From a virus, in IMG/VR virus record IMGVR_UViG_3300027858_000542, positions 1 through 25,699 of that record: 25,699 nt of DNA. One strand, 5' to 3'. Each line of letters opens with the position of its first letter. Positions within the stretch are counted from its first letter, which is position 1. The notes under the pieces were generated by a model. The model was not told the origin of the DNA. It did not search any database and saw only the letters and a program-made list of their open reading frames with translations. Position numbers and translations under genes: made by a program. Below, piece by piece: positions 1-25,471 of this stretch.

Positions 1-279
1 CTATTTCACCCCTTTTGGATTGTCATAGCGCAAAGCCTGTTGTGAATCCGAATGACTTCGAGTAGTTGGATCAGTAATAGCATTATATCCTGCATAAATC
101 ATGGTTCCTAATAAAACAGGATTTGTATATGCCTGTACAAACAGATCGCCTAATGTACCCCAGGTAGTAATGTCTGCAAAACTTAAACCTGTGTATATTA
201 AAACAGGTGACAAAATTGCTGATATTAGTTGAAAGATAAATATCGGGTTTTTAAAACGTATCGTCCAGTTGATTTTCAT
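1..279 (-). CDS. Phage holin, phi-LC3 type
   Basis: Small membrane protein of 92 residues that should form lesions in the cytoplasmic membrane so the endolysin can reach the wall. The sequence begins MKINWTIRFKNP, followed by a hydrophobic segment (about residues 13-35), a short polar link, a second hydrophobic stretch ending LLGTMIYAGYNAITDPTT, and a polar C-terminus with SDSQQALRYDNP; this pattern is that of the phi-LC3 holin family (Phage_holin_1). I chose the ATG at 279 because GGAGGA lies 7 bases upstream; a TTG five codons earlier falls before that site. The stop codon TAG occupies bases 1-3, so the gene is complete. It follows the XhlA gene directly, forming the usual two-gene lysis head of PBSX-like phages. 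Confidence 0.9.
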   Translation of the reverse strand: MKINWTIRFKNPIFIFQLISAILSPVLIYTGLSFADITTWGTLGDLFVQAYTNPVLLGTMIYAGYNAITDPTTRSHSDSQQALRYDNPKGVK

Positions 280-294
280 TGTGAGTTCCTCCAA

Positions 295-657
295 TTATTG
301 AAATTTTTCCATGATTGTTATTACGCCAGCAATTACTCCACCAGATCCACCAAGGATGGCAAAAAAACCAAGTATAATTTTTTCTGTCCTACTTAGTCGT
401 TTCATAGTAACTTTCTCATTCATTACAAGCTTTTTATCATCTGTACCAAAGTAATGATCTACGAATCTGCCGAGTAAGTCCCTGGTTTGTTGACCATCTT
501 TCATTACTGTTAATTCTAAGCTGGTTTGTGATGCGGTAATCTTCCCTATTTCTACCCTAAATTCCTCTTGCACTTCTTCTAACTTTTTTAGTCTTGGTAA
601 AACTTCTTCGTGGAATAATTCATCATGTTGTATTACCTTTTCAAAGGTATCTTGCAT
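295..657 (-). CDS. xhlA: Hemolysin XhlA-like lysis accessory protein
   Basis: A 120-residue protein with a long charged, helical N-terminal part (HEEVLPRLKKLEEVQEEFRV, likely coiled coil) and one C-terminal membrane segment (about residues 94-116, IILGFFAILGGSGGVIAGVI). This is the architecture of XhlA, which in PBSX associates with the membrane and works with the holin in host lysis. The ATG at 657 is preferred over a GTG at 678 because AGAGGAG is 8 bases upstream of the ATG, while the GTG has the GA-rich stretch immediately against it. It sits 15 bases ahead of the holin and downstream of a terminator that closes the cargo island, so the lysis genes may need their own promoter or read-through; I did not find a convincing promoter in 658-705. 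Confidence 0.85.
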   Translation of the reverse strand: MQDTFEKVIQHDELFHEEVLPRLKKLEEVQEEFRVEIGKITASQTSLELTVMKDGQQTRDLLGRFVDHYFGTDDKKLVMNEKVTMKRLSRTEKIILGFFAILGGSGGVIAGVITIMEKFQ

Positions 658-700
658 AGAACCTACTCCTCTTGTCACCCTCTCACCCCTTTTTAACTAA

Positions 701-729
701 ATAAAAAGAGCACCCAATTGGATGCTCTT
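701..729 (-). terminator. Intrinsic terminator after the SIR2 gene
   Basis: On the minus strand a stem AAGAGCA / TGCTCTT (arms 723-729 and 706-712), with an inner CCAATTGG core, is followed at once by TTTTTATTT. It lies 14 bases past the SIR2 stop codon. On the plus strand the hairpin is followed by CAAAAAA, so termination is one-way. It separates the cargo island from the lysis cassette. Confidence 0.8.
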
Positions 730-742
730 CAAAAAATTATAT

Positions 743-1990
743 TTATAATACCTCTTTTTTTACTTTTAAATTCTCTTTTACTAAAGAAATTAATTCCTTA
801 TGAACTTCCTTATCACCAAAAAAACCTTCTACATGGATAACATTTAAGTGATTGATGAAACTCATAAATTCTAACTCCCATTGATTTGGTGGTGGACCTA
901 CAACAAGAATTCTTAAGTCTGGATTTTCTCTTAACCCCCTAGACATAACGTTAACTATTCCAGGGTCTCGAAAAGCAAAGCCAATTACAATAAGTACTTT
1001 TGTTTTCCGTATATACCGATCAAGTTCTAAATGACTATATGAATAAGGATCTTCATCTGGAGTAGTCTTATCAGAAGGATATATCATACTAAATTCTCTA
1101 GGCATATAACTCAAATCAGAAACAGGATCGGTTGTTAACATAACTTCACCATCCCTCTTCTCCCAAATAGCTGAGCCATGTAGCTTGTGATATGGTACCA
1201 CAACCCCTCCATTACAGTTCATTGAAAATGCATGCTGCCTCCAAACAAAGTAGGATCCATACTCGTGCTTAGTAAAGCCGTTAGCAAACTTGTAGTCAGG
1301 TACCGACTTCCGCCAGTTTGTATGCAAATCAATACATTCCTTCTTAGCAGAAGATTCTAGGACATAATCAATTGAAGGATCATAATTAACTGTGAAAACA
1401 GGTAATGTTATCTGGTTCTCCTCATTAGTATTAGAATTCAATGAGTGAGTAAACAAATCTTTAAACAAATTACCATAGACCTCATATATTCCATTTAAAT
1501 TAACATCGGAGTATGATTTTCTAATTAACATCTGAAGGTCGTGTAATAAATCCTTAGCGCTCTGGTTAATTTCTGTATATCTCTGAAACATAGTATCAGC
1601 TATAGCTTTAGATAACAATTCATTAGGCAGTGAAGCTTTTCTGTGATCTTGAAATAAAGTATTCACGCTATTACTAATTCTCTCGACCAGTGTATTTTCA
1701 TTCATTATTGAAAAAGCAGAATCATCACTAAAAGTACCTGCCAGCTTATATAATGTCCCTAGAACTTTTTCTAAATCATATACCTCGTCTTCGTTCTTAT
1801 CTGGATACATGCAATCCATTACGTATTTAAAATAAATCCTGTTCCTTATAAAACTATCAGTCGGATTATGATCTTCATCCATTATCTGATTAAAAAATTG
1901 AGTCATATTAGGTAACTCAATGCCTTTTGCACATGAAGCTCCTGCGCCTGTAAACAGCACTATTGGTACATATTCATTTGTCGGATTCAC
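743..1990 (-). CDS. SIR2-domain protein, probable anti-phage NADase
   Basis: A 415-residue protein of the SIR2_2 type. Visible motifs are the NAD-binding loop LFTGAGAS at residues 12-19, DLEKVLG at 72-78, FTVNYD at 199-204 (the TxNYD motif), KLHGS at 269-273 with the predicted catalytic histidine H271, and VIGFAFRDP at 335-343. Prokaryotic proteins of this family act in abortive-infection defence by destroying NAD+ when a phage is sensed. There is no membrane segment and no clear second effector domain; the region between about 80 and 195 is helical and could be a sensor or assembly part. The start is GTG at 1990 with AGGGAG 7 bases upstream. It lies 29 bases after a zinc-ribbon gene and is followed by a terminator, making a two-gene unit between tail and lysis modules. 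The motifs are seen; the defence role is inferred from family and position. Confidence 0.85.
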   Translation of the reverse strand: MNPTNEYVPIVLFTGAGASCAKGIELPNMTQFFNQIMDEDHNPTDSFIRNRIYFKYVMDCMYPDKNEDEVYDLEKVLGTLYKLAGTFSDDSAFSIMNENTLVERISNSVNTLFQDHRKASLPNELLSKAIADTMFQRYTEINQSAKDLLHDLQMLIRKSYSDVNLNGIYEVYGNLFKDLFTHSLNSNTNEENQITLPVFTVNYDPSIDYVLESSAKKECIDLHTNWRKSVPDYKFANGFTKHEYGSYFVWRQHAFSMNCNGGVVVPYHKLHGSAIWEKRDGEVMLTTDPVSDLSYMPREFSMIYPSDKTTPDEDPYSYSHLELDRYIRKTKVLIVIGFAFRDPGIVNVMSRGLRENPDLRILVVGPPPNQWELEFMSFINHLNVIHVEGFFGDKEVHKELISLVKENLKVKKEVL

Positions 1991-2019
1991 AACTAAACTC
2001 CCTCTCTTAAAATATTTAT

Positions 2020-2271
2020 CTATGAGTTTAGTTTAACCTTAATTTCATCAACTTCAACCACAAAATCACAATTGTTTCCTGAGCACTTGATTTTTTCCTC
2101 AGATATTTCTGAAAATTGATAAGTTAAGTTTGAATTACAATTAGGGCATTTTAAAAAAAATCCTGTAATTGGATCTGTTTCAAATCTAATAGGTGCTATA
2201 TATATCCCTTTTTCTTCTTTATGTCTTCGGAAATCAGAAAGATTTGGAAGGATTTTAAAGTCCTTTTTCAT
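2020..2271 (-). CDS. Small zinc-ribbon protein paired with SIR2 gene
   Basis: An 83-residue protein with four cysteines arranged CPNC (42-45) and CSGNNC (63-68), a typical zinc-ribbon or treble-clef-like spacing, preceded by a basic, phenylalanine-rich N-terminus and followed by an acidic beta-like tail. I do not recognise a named family. The start ATG at 2271 has AAAGGAG 8 bases upstream. It is the first gene of the probable SIR2 transcript (29-base gap, same strand, shared terminator). It may be a regulator, inhibitor or sensing partner of the SIR2 protein, but the sequence alone does not decide. Confidence 0.75.
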   Translation of the reverse strand: MKKDFKILPNLSDFRRHKEEKGIYIAPIRFETDPITGFFLKCPNCNSNLTYQFSEISEEKIKCSGNNCDFVVEVDEIKVKLNS

Positions 2272-2296
2272 TAAGACGACTCCTTTAAAATAAATT

Positions 2297-2322
2297 AAAG
2301 GACATCATAAAAGATGTCCTTT
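2297..2322 (-). terminator. Bidirectional hairpin terminator before cargo pair
   Basis: Ten-base perfect arms AAAGGACATC (2297-2306) and GATGTCCTTT (2313-2322) with a 6-base loop. The plus strand continues with a run of T; the minus strand continues AATTTATTTT, a weaker tract. It should end transcripts of the 114-residue gene at 2387-2731. Since it sits only 26 bases before the zinc-ribbon start, it could also be the folded leader of that mRNA. Confidence 0.55.
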
Positions 2323-2354
2323 TTTAATATATTATTCATTTATAATGCTTCATA

Positions 2355-2383
2355 GAACATATTTAATACGACGCAATATGTTC
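2355..2383. promoter_or_regulatory. Inverted repeat, candidate operator for SIR2 unit
   Basis: Perfect 9-base inverted repeat GAACATATT (2355-2363) / AATATGTTC (2375-2383) with an 11-base spacer; the arm centres are 20 bp apart, two helical turns, as expected for a dimeric DNA-binding protein. On the minus strand a TATAAA (2339-2344) lies just downstream, so the repeat would cover the -35 zone of a weak promoter reading toward the zinc-ribbon and SIR2 genes. No T-run follows it, so it is not a terminator. Confidence 0.45.
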
Positions 2384-2386
2384 CAA

Positions 2387-2731
2387 CTATCCTCTTGTTT
2401 GATTAAATCTTTGAAAAAAGTAATCTCTAAATAAATCCTTCAAAGTGATTTTTCCACTATTCTTATCATAGATAAAGAACCCTTTTTCGGCTAATCCATG
2501 TAAATGTCTTTTAACATTAAGCTTACCGTTTTGATTTTGATTAATCGAAATACAAATGTTATATTCGTTATTAGCTAAAAGATATTCAGCTAGTTCATCT
2601 ATATCCAACTCAATAAGCTTTCTGTAATGTAAACTGTCCTCGATTTTTTTTATAGCAAAATCATAAGTTACATTTAAACATGCTTTTTCTCCAAGAGTAC
2701 TTACTTTTAATTCAGCGTTTTCTAGTTTCAT
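2387..2731 (-). CDS. Hypothetical protein, possible winged-helix
   Basis: A 114-residue protein I do not recognise. Residues from about 70 on (KLNVKRHLHGLAEKGFFIYD followed by KNSGKITLKDLF) read like the recognition helix and wing of a winged-helix domain; the N-terminal half is a mixed strand/helix region with IELDIDELAEYLL. The start ATG at 2731 is chosen because AAGGAG is 8 bases upstream; the GTG three codons earlier overlaps that site. It follows the terminator of the tail operon and precedes the SIR2 pair, with inverted repeats on both sides, so a local regulator of the cargo island is possible. That function is only inferred. Confidence 0.6.
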   Translation of the reverse strand: MKLENAELKVSTLGEKACLNVTYDFAIKKIEDSLHYRKLIELDIDELAEYLLANNEYNICISINQNQNGKLNVKRHLHGLAEKGFFIYDKNSGKITLKDLFRDYFFQRFNQTRG

Positions 2732-2743
2732 CCATATCACTCC

Positions 2744-2774
2744 TTGTAATAAGTATATCTCTTACCTATTACAA
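2744..2774. repeat. Inverted repeat upstream of the 114-residue gene
   Basis: TTGTAATA (2744-2751) and TATTACAA (2767-2774) form a perfect 8-base inverted repeat with a 15-base spacer, ending just before the ribosome binding site of the gene that starts at 2731. A TATACT sequence on the minus strand lies in the spacer and could be a -10 element, though no good -35 is present. It may be an operator or an mRNA leader hairpin. Confidence 0.4.
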
Positions 2775-2800
2775 TTTCTGCTAATATTTTACTCCTAATA

Positions 2801-2827
2801 AAAAATAACGCTAGCTTATGTTGCGTT
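2801..2827 (-). terminator. Probable terminator of the tail operon
   Basis: On the minus strand AACGC (2823-2827) and GCGTT (2807-2811) form a short 5-bp stem with an 11-base loop, followed by ATTTTTTATT. It lies 8 bases past the XkdX stop codon. The stem is short, so strength is uncertain. Confidence 0.5.
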
Positions 2828-2834
2828 TTAGAAT

Positions 2835-2966
2835 TTAACTATTAACGATAGACTTCTCAACTTCTTCATATAAGTTAAACAGTCTTGGAACTTCTTCAAG
2901 CGTCACTCCCCCTTCTCGTACTTTTCTCGACCACAATTTCACTAAAGAACTATTCGCATTAAACAT
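2835..2966 (-). CDS. xkdX: XkdX family small phage protein
   Basis: A 43-residue gene, read directly from the sequence. It begins MFNANSSLVKLWSRKVREGG and continues with VTLEEVPRLF and an acidic helix. XkdX proteins are 40-50 residues with a W-x-R/K-x(4-6)-G-x-V/I-T-x-E-x-V-P core, which this shows; they follow the tail-fibre genes in PBSX-like phages and their function is unknown. The ATG overlaps the TAA of the preceding gene by one base (TAATG), implying translational coupling. It is the last gene before the tail-operon terminator. Confidence 0.85.
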   Translation of the reverse strand: MFNANSSLVKLWSRKVREGGVTLEEVPRLFNLYEEVEKSIVNS

Positions 2967-3262
2967 TAATTAGTACCTCCCATCAGAGTAGCAAGAGCCA
3001 TCGTTAATTCCATAACACTACCTTCTAGTTCCGTTAGTCTATCTTGCTGTTTTTCTTCATCTGTAGGGATTATGTCCTCGTAGTCGAACCATACCCTTCC
3101 AGTTTTGTTATCAGCCTTCAATATAGCATTTTGTGAATCAGTCGATTCGTCGATAGGTAAAGACTCCAGTTGGATAGCTTTCACTTTCGTTTCTTCTGAT
3201 AAATATTTTCCGTCAAAAACTATACTTGCTAAATTATTTTCTCCTTCGAATACGTAAATCAT
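2966..3262 (-). CDS. XkdW-like tail-fibre-associated protein
   Basis: A 98-residue acidic protein lying between the tail fibre and XkdX, where PBSX-like phages carry XkdW or similar small tail proteins. The N-terminus (MIYVFEGENNLASIVFDGKY) looks beta-rich; the C-terminus is a helix (LTELEGSVMELTMALATLMG) of the type found at the end of many small phage tail proteins. The start ATG at 3262 has a GGAGAGGGT site upstream. Assignment rests mainly on position and general pattern; a chaperone or fibre-attachment role is possible. Confidence 0.6.
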   Translation of the reverse strand: MIYVFEGENNLASIVFDGKYLSEETKVKAIQLESLPIDESTDSQNAILKADNKTGRVWFDYEDIIPTDEEKQQDRLTELEGSVMELTMALATLMGGTN

Positions 3263-3276
3263 TGTACCCTCTCCTT

Positions 3277-4542
3277 TTAATATAAAGTTCTAAATACCGT
3301 ATTGCCCTGCATAAAGTAAAGTCTTCCATCCGGACCTTTTGTTAAGTCTCTCATTCCCGTAAAATCGTTTTCGAATAGTGTAACACCAGTATCTTTATTA
3401 ATTTTTTGGAGTCTACTGCTCTTAGTTAAGTACAGGTGCTTTTCATCAGCCATACTTAAATTGGGGTTAATGCTTCCGGTTTTAGGATTAAACCGATGTA
3501 TACTTTCTTGTGAAAAAGCGCCGTCACTTATGTTTAACCTTCCGAGATAATTTGTATTGGGTGACAGGTTTTCTTGTTGACCGAAATATACATATTTGTC
3601 ATCTTTTGATGATACCCATTGAAGAATATGAGTTGTTGCACTTGTCGCCAGAGAAACGAATGTTTCAATATCTACTTCTCTAATTTTTTTATTGTCGTAC
3701 AGTTGCATAAAACCAAACACTCTACCGTTGGGCGTAATGTCAAAATAGGTGTTACTGGACCCGCTTGTAGTGTCAAATGGTTTTCCAGATTTAACAGTTG
3801 ATAAGTCTATAGGTGAAACTGCTTTTAAATTGCCACCATAATAAGACACATAAATTAAATCATTATAGTAAACCACACTTCCGTAATCGTTACCGATACT
3901 CACAATCTTATCAACTACCATTGTCTCTTTATTTATTTTCGCTAATTGATTTCTATTGGTCGTACCTCCAGTTCCAACCGGTACAAATAGATGTGTTGCA
4001 TTTTGTACTACCCCATGACTTTGTGCAATATAAGAGACACTGCTTCGCGCGACTTGCACTCTTGTATTCACATCATATTTGTAAATGTAGTACTTACTTG
4101 CAAGATAGTATAAGAATATATACACGAAGTTACCGCTAGAATCTAGGACCATAGAAGTAGCGATGTCTCCTGGGTACTGTACATAAAAATTCTCGTCTAG
4201 TATTTCCAACTGTAACTTATCTTTTAAAGTTGCAGAAACACCGCCAGAATAGGTGTCGGGCAGTTTTCCATTTTGGTCTAATTCCGCGATTCCGTTTGGT
4301 TTCCCTTTACTATTCTTAAACGTCGTATAATCAGCCAAATGCGTCGTAAGACCACTCTTAACTTCGTTAATTCCTCCGGCTAATGTTTTGTCCGTTGTTT
4401 CTAATTCGGGCAATATAGCTGTCCCTTCTTTTAATTCTCCGACTGCTGCATCTAAGATATCCATATTTTCATTTAGATCAGCAATACTTACGTAATCTGT
4501 TAAATCCGGCTTATTCAAATTTAATTTTGCCGTGTACTTCAT
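3277..4542 (-). CDS. Tail fibre / receptor-binding protein with beta-propeller
   Basis: A 421-residue protein. Residues 1-115 are a tail-fibre attachment region (LNKPDLTDYVSIADLNENMD, then helical stretches and the linker GKPNGIAELDQNGKLPDTYS). From about 125 to 421 the sequence repeats a pattern of four short strands per blade with D/N-x-T or K-D-T-G turns: YIYKYDVNTRVQV, LAKINKETMVVDKIVSIG, REVDIETFVSLAT, LGRLNISDGAFSQ, LQKINKDTGVTLFENDF. This suggests a six- or seven-bladed beta-propeller, probably the part that meets the cell surface. It starts by a TAATG overlap with the upstream XkdU-like gene. I see no peptidase or hydrolase motif. The fibre role is clear from context; the propeller is inferred from repeats. 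Confidence 0.8.
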   Translation of the reverse strand: MKYTAKLNLNKPDLTDYVSIADLNENMDILDAAVGELKEGTAILPELETTDKTLAGGINEVKSGLTTHLADYTTFKNSKGKPNGIAELDQNGKLPDTYSGGVSATLKDKLQLEILDENFYVQYPGDIATSMVLDSSGNFVYIFLYYLASKYYIYKYDVNTRVQVARSSVSYIAQSHGVVQNATHLFVPVGTGGTTNRNQLAKINKETMVVDKIVSIGNDYGSVVYYNDLIYVSYYGGNLKAVSPIDLSTVKSGKPFDTTSGSSNTYFDITPNGRVFGFMQLYDNKKIREVDIETFVSLATSATTHILQWVSSKDDKYVYFGQQENLSPNTNYLGRLNISDGAFSQESIHRFNPKTGSINPNLSMADEKHLYLTKSSRLQKINKDTGVTLFENDFTGMRDLTKGPDGRLYFMQGNTVFRTLY

Positions 4543-5357
4543 TAGCTCACCTCATTCCATATTCTTAAATCATTCCACGTCATGTTAGATATGCCACCCC
4601 ATGTTTTATCACTTATGAAATCCCATGGATTAAAGGTGTAGGTGTAGGCAAATTCAAAATGTGCAGGAACAATAATATCTATTGCTTGTTGTAATCCCTC
4701 AATGTTATCTGGAATCCCTTTAGCCCCTACAAACTTGATTTCAAATACTCCATCTATTTCAGTAACATTGACCTCAACCTCGCCATTTGAATAGGCTTTA
4801 GCTACTGACTTAATAGTGTCCTCCGTGGTTTGGTCAAAGCTTGCAATATACCTAGATGAAATTTGCTCTCTACGTTGGTCATAACGCAATGTTTTCATTG
4901 TTTTAATACCTAAGTCGCGTTCAAAAATAGGAAGTGATTCAATGGCTGTATCTAGGAATATATTTCTCTTCGTTATTTCCAACCGTTGTTCAACATTCCT
5001 AAATTCACGATCATAAGCATCTAATACTTCGTTGAATATTAAGGACTTACGTTCATATAACGGTAAATACTTGAGCATATCCGTTTTATAATCACGTTCT
5101 GAAACAACAATACTTGTAATCATTTCCGTTTTTGTCTGCATGATGATAGGTGATTGAACAATTTTTACGCCTGTAGCTACTTGCTCTGTAATCACTTCAT
5201 TTACTACATTAGAATATTTGAGCAATACACCTTGTACTTCTTGTTCCGTTTCAGCTTCCATTAACGCAAGTCTAAAATCTTCCCATAGATGTGGAGTTAA
5301 ATCGCTCCAGGTATGGACAACAACTTGTCCCCATTCTGACTCTTGTATTGCATACAT
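4542..5357 (-). CDS. xkdU: XkdU/YmfQ-like baseplate protein (DUF2313)
   Basis: A 271-residue baseplate wedge protein. The central part (from about residue 92, DMLKYLPLYERKSLIFNEVL) to the end matches the layout of YmfQ/XkdU: a helical start, a TAIESLPIFERDLGI element, then beta strands ending near PAHFEFAYTYTFNPWD, the usual end of this family. Residues 1-90 are an N-terminal extension with YAIQESEWGQVVVHTWSDL; a related W-DL motif recurs near the C-terminus (TWGGISNMTWNDLRIW), suggesting a small repeated strap. It follows baseplate J and a small tail protein, the standard order, and precedes the fibre it probably helps attach. Confidence 0.8.
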   Translation of the reverse strand: MYAIQESEWGQVVVHTWSDLTPHLWEDFRLALMEAETEQEVQGVLLKYSNVVNEVITEQVATGVKIVQSPIIMQTKTEMITSIVVSERDYKTDMLKYLPLYERKSLIFNEVLDAYDREFRNVEQRLEITKRNIFLDTAIESLPIFERDLGIKTMKTLRYDQRREQISSRYIASFDQTTEDTIKSVAKAYSNGEVEVNVTEIDGVFEIKFVGAKGIPDNIEGLQQAIDIIVPAHFEFAYTYTFNPWDFISDKTWGGISNMTWNDLRIWNEVS

Positions 5358-5365
5358 TTAATCAC

Positions 5366-5713
5366 CTACTTCAATCTGACAATCAGATAATTTTTAGGGA
5401 CTTTATATTGACTGGATATGTCGATATTTTTAATGAATTCAGCAGGAGATTTAAATAATAAATTTCCATTTGTTGCAGCATCATAAATACCAATGTGGGT
5501 AATATCTCCCCAAATTTCATTTGCAATGGGAAACAGTACGTCTACATTATTAGATGTTTGTCCGTCCACAGGCTCAACAAATGTAACTGCTTGTCGTAGA
5601 TAACTAGCCTTCGCAACTTCTACTTCTGCATTAAATAACGCTACGTAAACAGGAGTTGTACGAAGGTTGTTAGTTAATACCTTGTTCTTTAAATAAACGC
5701 TCATATGGTTCAT
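5366..5713 (-). CDS. Small phage tail fibre family protein
   Basis: A 115-residue, mostly beta protein. It starts with [20 protein letters not shown] and carries the signature [17 protein letters not shown], typical of a widespread small phage tail-fibre or baseplate protein family (elements Y-x-R-Q-x-V-T-F and W-G-x-I-T-H-x-G-I-Y-D are both present). It lies between baseplate J and the XkdU-like gene, so it is probably a baseplate-fibre junction component. The ATG at 5713 overlaps the baseplate J stop (ATGA) and has GGAGG 9 bases upstream. Confidence 0.7.
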
Positions 5714-20531: not shown

Positions 20532-20837
20532 TTAACCGCAACAAGGACATCGTTCATCCTTTAATGTTGTGTCTTTGCCTGGTAAATTAAATGTATCCAC
20601 AACTTCCAAATGTCCACCACAAATGTCACAAGCATTACCCTCGCTCAATGGTTTTAATGTATCAGCACTAAGGGTTATGATAAGTTGTTGTTTAGCATTA
20701 GTCAGTTGATCTTTTCTTTCTTCGGCTGATTTTAATTCACTACTCAAATAGGTTATATTATCTTCAACTTTGTCTATATCTCTTGTTACGCTTCTTAATT
20801 CTTTTTGTAATGTTTCTTTGATATAGTCCATACTCAA
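20532..20837 (-). CDS. Coiled-coil plus zinc-ribbon small protein
   Basis: A 101-residue protein. Residues 5-58 form a coiled coil (VEDNITYLSSELKSAEERKD). The C-terminus holds CDIC (70-73) and ends CPCCG (97-101), so a zinc ribbon occupies residues 70-101. I do not recognise a named family. The start may be TTG (20837; AAGGA 6 bases upstream) or ATG (20831). It overlaps the preceding gene by 4 bases. Position before HNH suggests a DNA- or nuclease-associated role, unproven. Confidence 0.7.
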   Translation of the reverse strand: MSMDYIKETLQKELRSVTRDIDKVEDNITYLSSELKSAEERKDQLTNAKQQLIITLSADTLKPLSEGNACDICGGHLEVVDTFNLPGKDTTLKDERCPCCG

Positions 20838-21121
20838 TCATCTTCCTTGTCTATTGCATCTAACTCATTTGCTAGTTCTTCAGTATGTTTAGCGATTGCT
20901 CTTAACTTAGCTGATAGATTGTCTGTATTCATTTCTACTGCTATTTCAATAGACTTCGAATTTGGTTTAATGTATTTATGGATTTTATAAATATCAACAA
21001 ATGCACCTTTACATTTCGGACATACATTTACTTCTTGATAGTCTTCTTTACTTTCGTGGTGAATCATTTCGCTATGTTCACAAACTAAACACCTTGCTTT
21101 GAATTTATAACGCTTAGTCAT
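20834..21121 (-). CDS. Small zinc-ribbon protein
   Basis: A 95-residue protein with an N-terminal zinc ribbon: CLVC (11-14) and CPKC (34-37), followed by a short beta segment and an acidic C-terminal helix (LSAKLRAIAKHTEELANELD). The ATG at 21121 is chosen for GGAGGG 7 bases upstream. Function unknown; it forms a coupled pair with the next zinc-ribbon gene. Confidence 0.7.
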   Translation of the reverse strand: MTKRYKFKARCLVCEHSEMIHHESKEDYQEVNVCPKCKGAFVDIYKIHKYIKPNSKSIEIAVEMNTDNLSAKLRAIAKHTEELANELDAIDKEDD

Positions 21122-21247
21122 TCTTCGTCCCTCCACAATCATATTTACTATTTAATCGATAGCTCGAAGATGTATAGATCACCTAACCTTTCTCGAATTT
21201 GTCATTGAGTAAAGCAAGAATGAACCACCACCTTTAATGAAAATTTA

Positions 21248-21424
21248 TCAATGTCTGTTCAGCATTTTTCTAACGCCATTCTTATATGAGAATTGCTTAG
21301 TAGCAACCGACTGTTCGTTTTGATTAATACTTTGTTCAAGTTTTTGGTTCAAGGACTTAGCGACATAAGGTTTTATTAAACAGCGAATACAATTGCACGT
21401 ATCTATTCCAGTCAATACAACCAT
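21248..21424 (-). CDS. Small hypothetical protein with CxCxxC
   Basis: A 58-residue ORF with CNCIRC near residues 10-15 and a polar Q/N/S-rich remainder (SLNQKLEQSINQNEQSVATK). AGGTGGTGA precedes the ATG at 21424 by a good distance, which is the main evidence that it is a gene. No family recognised; the CxCxxC could bind metal. It follows the terminator at 21449-21479 and would be first on the next transcript. Confidence 0.5.
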   Translation of the reverse strand: MVVLTGIDTCNCIRCLIKPYVAKSLNQKLEQSINQNEQSVATKQFSYKNGVRKMLNRH

Positions 21425-21448
21425 GTATTTCACCACCTTTTATGTATA

Positions 21449-21479
21449 ATAAAAAGCCACACCCGAATGGATGTGACTT
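21449..21479 (-). terminator. Strong intrinsic terminator after zinc-ribbon gene
   Basis: Eleven-base stem on the minus strand, AAGTCACATCC (21479-21469) with GGGTGTGGCTT (21464-21454), two G-T pairs, 4-base loop, then TTTTATTATA. It begins 8 bases beyond the stop of the 76-residue zinc-ribbon gene. Late genes below it need read-through, antitermination or another promoter. Confidence 0.8.
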
Positions 21480-21486
21480 CGTTAAA

Positions 21487-21717
21487 TTATCTCAATATAT
21501 ATTCATTCGACTTGTTCTTACAATTTGGACATTTCACATCGAATCTAATATCTTCTTTAGATCCTTCTGTTGTTAACAATGAACCTACTACTACATTTTC
21601 AGCCAATACATTATCTGGACCTGTTGTCATTGGTTCACCTATTACGTTTCCTACAGCAATGATTTCATTTTTACAAATTGAACATGTGATTTCTTTATGA
21701 AAGTAAATCTGTGTCAT
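21487..21717 (-). CDS. Zinc-ribbon protein in a one-gene transcription unit
   Basis: A 76-residue protein with CSIC (12-15) near the start and CPNC (63-66) near the end, so the two metal-binding halves are separated by a 47-residue insert (EPMTTGPDNVLAENVVVGSL) that looks beta-rich. The ATG at 21717 has GGAGG 7 bases upstream. It has its own good promoter (21740-21768) and terminator, unlike any other gene here. Function unknown; folded-back zinc ribbon or rubredoxin-like knuckle is possible. Confidence 0.7.
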   Translation of the reverse strand: MTQIYFHKEITCSICKNEIIAVGNVIGEPMTTGPDNVLAENVVVGSLLTTEGSKEDIRFDVKCPNCKNKSNEYILR

Positions 21718-21739
21718 ACGAACACCTCCCTCCACAATA

Positions 21740-21768
21740 ATCATAATGTGCTTGGAAATGTTTGTCAT
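21740..21768 (-). promoter_or_regulatory. Sigma-A type promoter
   Basis: On the minus strand ATGACA (21768-21763), 17-base spacer, TATGAT (21745-21740); each hexamer matches consensus at 5 of 6 positions. Transcription would start near 21733 and the leader would be very short, with the ribosome site of the zinc-ribbon gene at once downstream. The inverted repeats at 21781-21868 lie immediately upstream, where an activator such as RinA could bind. Confidence 0.6.
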
Positions 21769-21780
21769 TAACAACTTTAT

Positions 21781-24928: not shown

Positions 24929-25471
24929 TTACCAACTGATTTTACTTTGTTGTTTGTTTAAATCATCTTGTCTTATGCCTATATATCTCTTGGTGACTCC
25001 AGGTTCGATATGATTTAATGCTTCCTGCAACGTTGCAATATCTTTAAATTGTTGATAATGATGATAACCATACGTTTTTCTAAGCGAATGTGTACCTATT
25101 CGTTCTAACCCAAATTCTTCAGCAGCTTGATTTAAAATCTTGTATGCCATACTCCTAGAAATAGGTTTATTTTTTCCTTCCCTTGATTTAATTAAGTACT
25201 CATCACTAGGTTTTTCTTTGATATAAGATTTAAGAGCTCTTTTCAATTCAGTGGTCATTTGTACTTCTCTGGTTTTTTTGGTCTTTTTCTCTCTAATGAA
25301 AATACTATCTCCTTGTACCTCTTTTACTGTAAGAACAAGAATGTCTGATATACGTAAGCCTGTATGGATGCCTAATAGAAACATTACGTAATTACGTTCA
25401 TTTTGATCTTTGAAATACTTTCTCATTTCCTTTAGAATTTCTTTGTCCCTAATTGGCTGCACTAAATTCAT
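24929..25471 (-). CDS. Short tyrosine recombinase (catalytic domain only)
   Basis: A 180-residue tyrosine recombinase. The catalytic set is visible: R40 in HTGLRISD, basic K around 62-66 (EKKTKKTR), H128-x2-R131 in THSLRKTYGYHHY, H144 in LNHIEPGVTKRY and the nucleophile Y153. It lacks the N-terminal core-binding domain of usual integrases. Such short recombinases are common before the late region in Bacillales phages, away from the att/repressor module, so a role in dimer resolution or DNA processing is more likely than being the main integrase. The start has GAGGTGA upstream. Confidence 0.87.
   Translation of the reverse strand: MNLVQPIRDKEILKEMRKYFKDQNERNYVMFLLGIHTGLRISDILVLTVKEVQGDSIFIREKKTKKTREVQMTTELKRALKSYIKEKPSDEYLIKSREGKNKPISRSMAYKILNQAAEEFGLERIGTHSLRKTYGYHHYQQFKDIATLQEALNHIEPGVTKRYIGIRQDDLNKQQSKISW

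Follow-up and report, generated by a model that had tools for sequence, protein, structure and literature searches.

SIR2 proteins and prophage-borne defence genes

SIR2 proteins act as NADase effectors in several systems directed against phages. In DSR2, ThsA and SIR2-HerA, matching N-Y-D and H residues form the catalytic pocket, NAD+ hydrolysis by DSR2 drops when Y134, D135 or H171 is mutated, and DSR2 is inhibited by the phage protein DSAD1 (PMC11263360). The single-domain SIR2 proteins of SIR2-HerA and SPARSA act together with a partner. Furthermore, it is well known that defence genes travel in prophages, including those of Bacillus, as small inserts of variable content flanked by conserved phage genes (PMC9122126). 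A prophage effector may also be accompanied by its own inhibitor, as described for Tha, which is paired with the small protein Ith, Ith-1 and Ith-2 each matching the cognate Tha (PMC11087260).

The DNA analyzed in this study (the window) is a whole IMG/VR virus record of 25,699 bases, which is probably a fragment of a virus genome. The following features were considered:

1-294, minus strand: holin gene (Phage_holin_1, 1.1e-21), lysis-side border of the insert
295-678, minus strand: 127-aa ORF at the XhlA position, lysis-side border of the insert
705-730, minus strand: Rho-independent terminator-like hairpin past the SIR2 gene, 11 pairs, T-rich tail
743-1990, minus strand: SIR2_2-type protein of 415 aa, predicted NADase, GTG start with Shine-Dalgarno sequence GAGAGGGAG
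2020-2271, minus strand: C4 zinc-ribbon-like ORF of 83 aa, 29 bp upstream of the SIR2 gene, assigned to no family
2297-2322, both strands: bidirectional terminator-like hairpin flanked by a T-rich tail on each strand; it separates the zinc-ribbon ORF from the 117-aa ORF and delimits the unit on its upstream side
2387-2740, minus strand: 117-aa accessory ORF with a GC content of 28%, between the gene pair and the ORF at the XkdX position, outside the terminator-bounded unit
2835-2966, minus strand: 43-aa ORF at the XkdX position, last gene of the tail region, tail-side border of the insert site

The window SIR2 resembles the SIR2 subunit of SIR2-HerA in its SIR2_2-type profile, its N-Y-D and H residues, a G-F/Y-x-F-x-D motif and its similar length (381-415 aa); however, no HerA gene adjoins any of the three copies of the window family, and the similarity is remote (2.8e-6 with a profile). 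A likeness to SPARSA (SIR2-APAZ with a short pAgo) is given by Aga_SIR2 as the top PADLOC models, but only about 45 residues follow the SIR2 region, too few for an APAZ domain, and no pAgo gene is present. With DSR1/DSR2 and ThsA the window shares a SIR2 NADase effector (predicted in the window), Bacillus-type hosts and the correspondence of the N, Y, D and H residues. DSR2, in contrast, possesses a long C-terminal sensor region binding the phage tail tube protein, and the DSR models gave no match to the window SIR2; ThsA of Thoeris differs in that the window has neither a SLOG domain nor a ThsB/TIR gene. Since the 415-residue protein ends soon past its SIR2 region, a DSR2-like sensor, an APAZ domain or a SLOG domain would not fit into it, and no sensor domain was visible in the window SIR2 or at the locus of either full-length homologue.

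Regarding gene arrangement, Tha and Ith of staphylococcal prophages offer a parallel, a small gene lying beside that of a defence effector in the phage genome. Tha, however, belongs to the HEPN RNases, and the ith gene lies antisense in the lysogeny region, whereas the small gene of the window is co-directional. The defence hotspots of P2/P4-type prophages (PMC9122126) also harbour small variable inserts between conserved phage genes, and their contents include SIR2 proteins; they belong to other phages and another site, and the published Bacillus example adjoins the integrase gene, not the tail-to-lysis region.

Sequence and family assignment of the SIR2 protein

The coordinates, the strand and the motifs claimed for the SIR2 protein in the initial annotation (GAGAS at 15-19, FTVNYD at 199-204, KLHGS with H271, IGFAFRDP) were all found as stated in the sequence and its ORFs, IGFAFRDP spanning residues 336-343. 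The annotation had also regarded the NAD-binding and catalytic elements as intact, and in alignments N202, Y203, D204 and H271 are indeed invariant among the window SIR2, its two full-length homologues and two SIR2 proteins encoded beside HerA-like genes. These residues were compared with N133/Y134/D135/H171 of DSR2 (PMC11263360).

Screening with PADLOC, as had been suggested, yielded Aga_SIR2 (2.8e-18) and SIR2 (9.7e-18) as best models, and 17 of the 19 matches were SIR2 models. The Pfam model SIR2_2 (PF13289) scored 24.4 bits against a gathering cutoff of 24.5 for the window protein, and 28.9 bits (above the cutoff) and 23.0 bits for the two homologues. Judged by the PADLOC profiles, the predicted SIR2 assignment of the 415-aa protein is well above chance. 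A profile built from the three sequences matched only SIR2-like domain proteins in the PDB, with 8w9l at 2.8e-6 and 8j4u at 7e-4, both of which we take to be SIR2 subunits of SIR2-HerA. The entry 8uaf, listed together with 8j4u, is named SIR2-HerA (PMC11263360). Single-sequence AlphaFold predictions gave unusable models for the SIR2 protein (mean pLDDT 33.9) and for the zinc ribbon (mean pLDDT 41.4).

Phage record, host and insertion site

The main genes of the record are all located on the minus strand and encode, from high to low coordinates, a tyrosine recombinase, the terminase large subunit, the portal, an HK97-type capsid, a contractile tail including Baseplate J and Mu gp48-like proteins, accessory proteins and a holin; the record stops short of any endolysin gene. 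It represents a temperate, contractile-tailed phage of a Bacillus-type bacterium. The host is probably a member of the Bacillales, because, among cellular sequences, the closest relative of the tail that was found belongs to a prophage region of Sporosarcina cyprini (Baseplate J, 70% identity). The recombinase gene (24929-25471, minus strand, 180 aa, Phage_integrase 2.1e-27) lies 5' of the packaging genes, and its product is below the typical size of an integrase. Three other small proteins with CxxC pairs are also encoded 5' of the packaging genes (20532-20837, 20834-21142 and 21487-21774, all minus strand).

The SIR2/zinc-ribbon insert is cargo at a tail-to-lysis accessory site, since the same site is present without it in two relatives. 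In line with the prophage cargo proposed in the initial annotation, the insert is absent from both L003, which shares 70-97% identity with the window in neighbouring tail proteins, and L013, a Sporosarcina prophage; in each, a small last tail ORF is followed by the holin gene, and the SIR2 gene, the zinc ribbon and the 117-aa ORF are missing. The 117-aa ORF thus belongs to the same insert relative to these two phages. It is not clearly part of the SIR2 system, as it is separated by a terminator and no relatives were found, including by an IMG/VR pattern scan, which reaches close relatives only; PADLOC gave it a weak match to SspB (0.0011). The proposed location between XkdX and the lysis cassette was accurate for the tail-to-lysis site and the holin, but the 117-aa ORF intervenes, and the XkdX identity of the 43-aa ORF is based on position and size: no Pfam model matched this ORF, and its sole match was the uncharacterised PHROG phrog_5056.

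The terminator predicted behind the SIR2 gene was confirmed as the hairpin at 705-730, and the second hairpin at 2297-2322 closes the other side of the unit. In total, three terminator-like sites were found compared with 0.7 expected. No promoter for the unit exceeded chance, and Rfam gave no matches over positions 1-3300. With empty sites and terminators observed and the promoter count not above chance, independent expression of the SIR2/zinc-ribbon unit is plausible.

Rarity and prophage context of the SIR2 homologues

A search of roughly 1,000-1,500 Bacillota genomes yielded no more than two full-length homologues of the SIR2 protein, at 35% identity. Both originated from 400 genomes of the class, as did several remote SIR2 proteins, and further, overlapping searches (11, 250, 399, 151, 41 and 340 genomes) returned the same two only. 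No full-length relative was identified by tblastn among 50,697 phage records and 72,556 plasmid records, the one plasmid match covering 24% of the protein. Pattern scans, which reach close relatives only, revealed no relatives in either IMG/VR or genome contigs.

Both homologues reside in a prophage context. In one genome (G194), the SIR2 gene is preceded by holin and amidase genes and by those of a contractile tail that includes Baseplate J; in the other (G168), it is located past a holin gene in an apparent prophage remnant. The unit follows the lysis genes in both homologues and precedes them in the window, so that the three loci share the same prophage region, not an identical junction. 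The GC contents of the homologous SIR2 genes are 34.1 and 32.1% versus 44.2 and 43.5% for neighbouring phage genes, a difference of about 10 points, as expected of later acquisition. No HerA or pAgo gene was found in the whole window record or in the 18-kb region around each homologue, and none of the three SIR2 copies has a STAND partner beside it. Based on sequence comparison, these proteins make up a distinct and rare family of standalone SIR2 proteins that prophages carry as cargo, the prophage association comprising three loci. Beside the SIR2-bearing prophage end in G194, a 76-aa ORF (L024, 7604-7834) encodes a LexA-like N-terminal domain, apparently without the C-terminal half.

The zinc-ribbon ORF as a candidate partner

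The initial annotation had placed an 83-aa C4 zinc-ribbon gene 29 bases from the SIR2 gene, which the ORF coordinates bear out; the label itself refers to the cysteine pattern (C42-x2-C45-x17-C63-x4-C68). The ORF is probably a real gene, because it is preceded by a strong Shine-Dalgarno sequence (AAAGGAG, 8 nt from the ATG) and its codon usage is coding-like, resembling that of the phage's genes (z = 3.6 versus shuffles). Family models gave weak matches at most (best PHROG E = 0.005), so that the name 'zinc ribbon' rests on the cysteine pattern. No relatives were found in IMG/VR, phages, plasmids and the 400 class genomes. The pattern scans of IMG/VR, which were likewise negative for the 117-aa ORF and the two other small proteins, reach close relatives only. 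The genomes of the two SIR2 homologues likewise contained no convincing relative; a marginal match in G168 (E = 0.02) lies away from the SIR2 locus, contains stop codons and was rejected.

The layout of one small co-directional ORF directly upstream of the SIR2 gene occurs in all three loci, with gaps to the likely SIR2 start of 29 bp in the window, 61 bp in L016 and 55 bp in L017. In L017, the 55 bp are counted to the start that has a ribosome site; the first possible start is 25 bp away. At the homologous loci, the upstream ORFs encode 113 and 124 aa (about 110 aa each by best start), have no cysteine pattern and show no known domain. Neither BLAST nor shuffling revealed homology among the small upstream proteins: in global alignments, the zinc ribbon scored z = 0.9 and -0.6 against the other two, and these scored z = 2.1 against each other.

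The SIR2/zinc-ribbon pairing proposed earlier was therefore not borne out by linkage in relatives. Coupling of the two genes is not supported by the sequences available (n = 2 homologues), because neither full-length homologue has a zinc-ribbon gene next to its SIR2 gene, both carry unrelated small genes upstream, and no relatives of the zinc ribbon were found in the collections searched. A literature search on SIR2 combined with a zinc ribbon in an anti-phage context returned a jumbo-phage review and no matching system. Probably, the zinc ribbon is an accessory gene specific to its lineage rather than a conserved partner, and a function as brake or adaptor of SIR2 is possible. Small ORFs are abundant in phages. 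Predicted small zinc-ribbon-like proteins are common in the phage record, with at least three others at 20532-21774; since small ORFs are thus frequent, chance is also an adequate explanation for the layout of a small ORF before the SIR2 gene.

Proposed function and alternative explanations

Based on these results, the unit is probably a moron of a temperate phage, with SIR2 as an NADase effector against superinfecting phages. The NADase defence role suggested by the initial annotation is the best inference from the intact catalytic residues and the match to defence SIR2 profiles. Under this proposal, the effector would be held off in the lysogen; infection by another phage would switch it on, most likely via a phage-made protein; and active SIR2 would hydrolyse NAD+ and stop the superinfecting phage. 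The infected cell would probably be lost in the process, and the lysogen population would be protected. We infer the NADase activity, the trigger, the abortive infection with cell death and the expression in the lysogen. The activation step is a guess, because the protein has no visible sensor domain and the AlphaFold model is unusable, and lysogen expression is assumed, because no promoter above chance was found. The SIR2 and zinc-ribbon genes are co-directional with the late tail and lysis genes, and the unit might be expressed only late. Features that appear to favour defence are the defence SIR2 profiles, the N-Y-D and H residues, the position of the homologues past holin or amidase genes, the low GC content, the empty sites and the terminators.

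The shared orientation and position of SIR2 with late genes, and the absence of a detected promoter of its own, would also suit an enzyme acting in the lytic cycle, e.g., on host NAD levels or on a host target that it would modify at a late stage of the infection. This role is quite improbable, given that relatives with intact tail and lysis genes are devoid of SIR2, that terminators insulate the unit on both sides, and that the closest profiles are defence SIR2 proteins. It is highly improbable that the protein is a half of SIR2-HerA or SPARSA that has become an orphan and depends on a partner encoded by the host, such as HerA or a short Argonaute. The best models do point to Aga_SIR2 and the SIR2 proteins of SIR2-HerA, systems in which single-domain SIR2 proteins act together with a partner; however, that search also returned at least three remote SIR2 genes with a HerA-like ATPase ORF behind them (L018, L020 and L021), whereas neither HerA nor pAgo occurs in the window record or in the 18-kb regions around the two homologues. 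The gene is intact in three different prophages lacking such a partner, which argues against an orphan.

A further explanation is that each SIR2 is controlled by the small protein encoded upstream of it, which would act as its dedicated inhibitor or adaptor and would evolve fast or be swapped between prophages; in the window, the zinc ribbon would be this brake. The recurrent layout with its short gaps fits such a toxin-brake pair, and prophage defence effectors need self-immunity, for which Tha and its small inhibitor Ith provide a precedent; the inhibition of DSR2 by the phage protein DSAD1 is another example of such control. It is nevertheless unlikely: homology among the small proteins is not detectable, the layout is known from three loci, small ORFs being abundant in phages and the window phage having at least three other small CxxC proteins, and translational coupling is not forced, given the separate ribosome site of SIR2. 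Rather unlikely, too, is the extended form of this idea, in which a family of SIR2 NADases, confined to prophages and lacking HerA, Argonaute and an integral sensor, would always stand behind one small gene that differs between prophages. The product of this gene would be an exchangeable module that reads the trigger or confers self-immunity, and the zinc ribbon would be one of these modules.

Considered as a defence moron, the window SIR2 is a credible addition to the known SIR2 NADase defences of prophages, which would gain a rare, standalone family. How a one-domain SIR2 without a known partner is kept off and triggered is a real and testable question. Moreover, naming a two-gene system from one locus is risky, as the eye-catching neighbour is not conserved here.

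In related phages (L005, positions 2893-5658, and also L007 and L009), the same tail-to-lysis region harbours a diversity-generating retroelement, which comprises a reverse transcriptase (RVT_1, 9.6e-18) together with a bAvd-like protein and, as its likely variable target, a DUF6273 protein.
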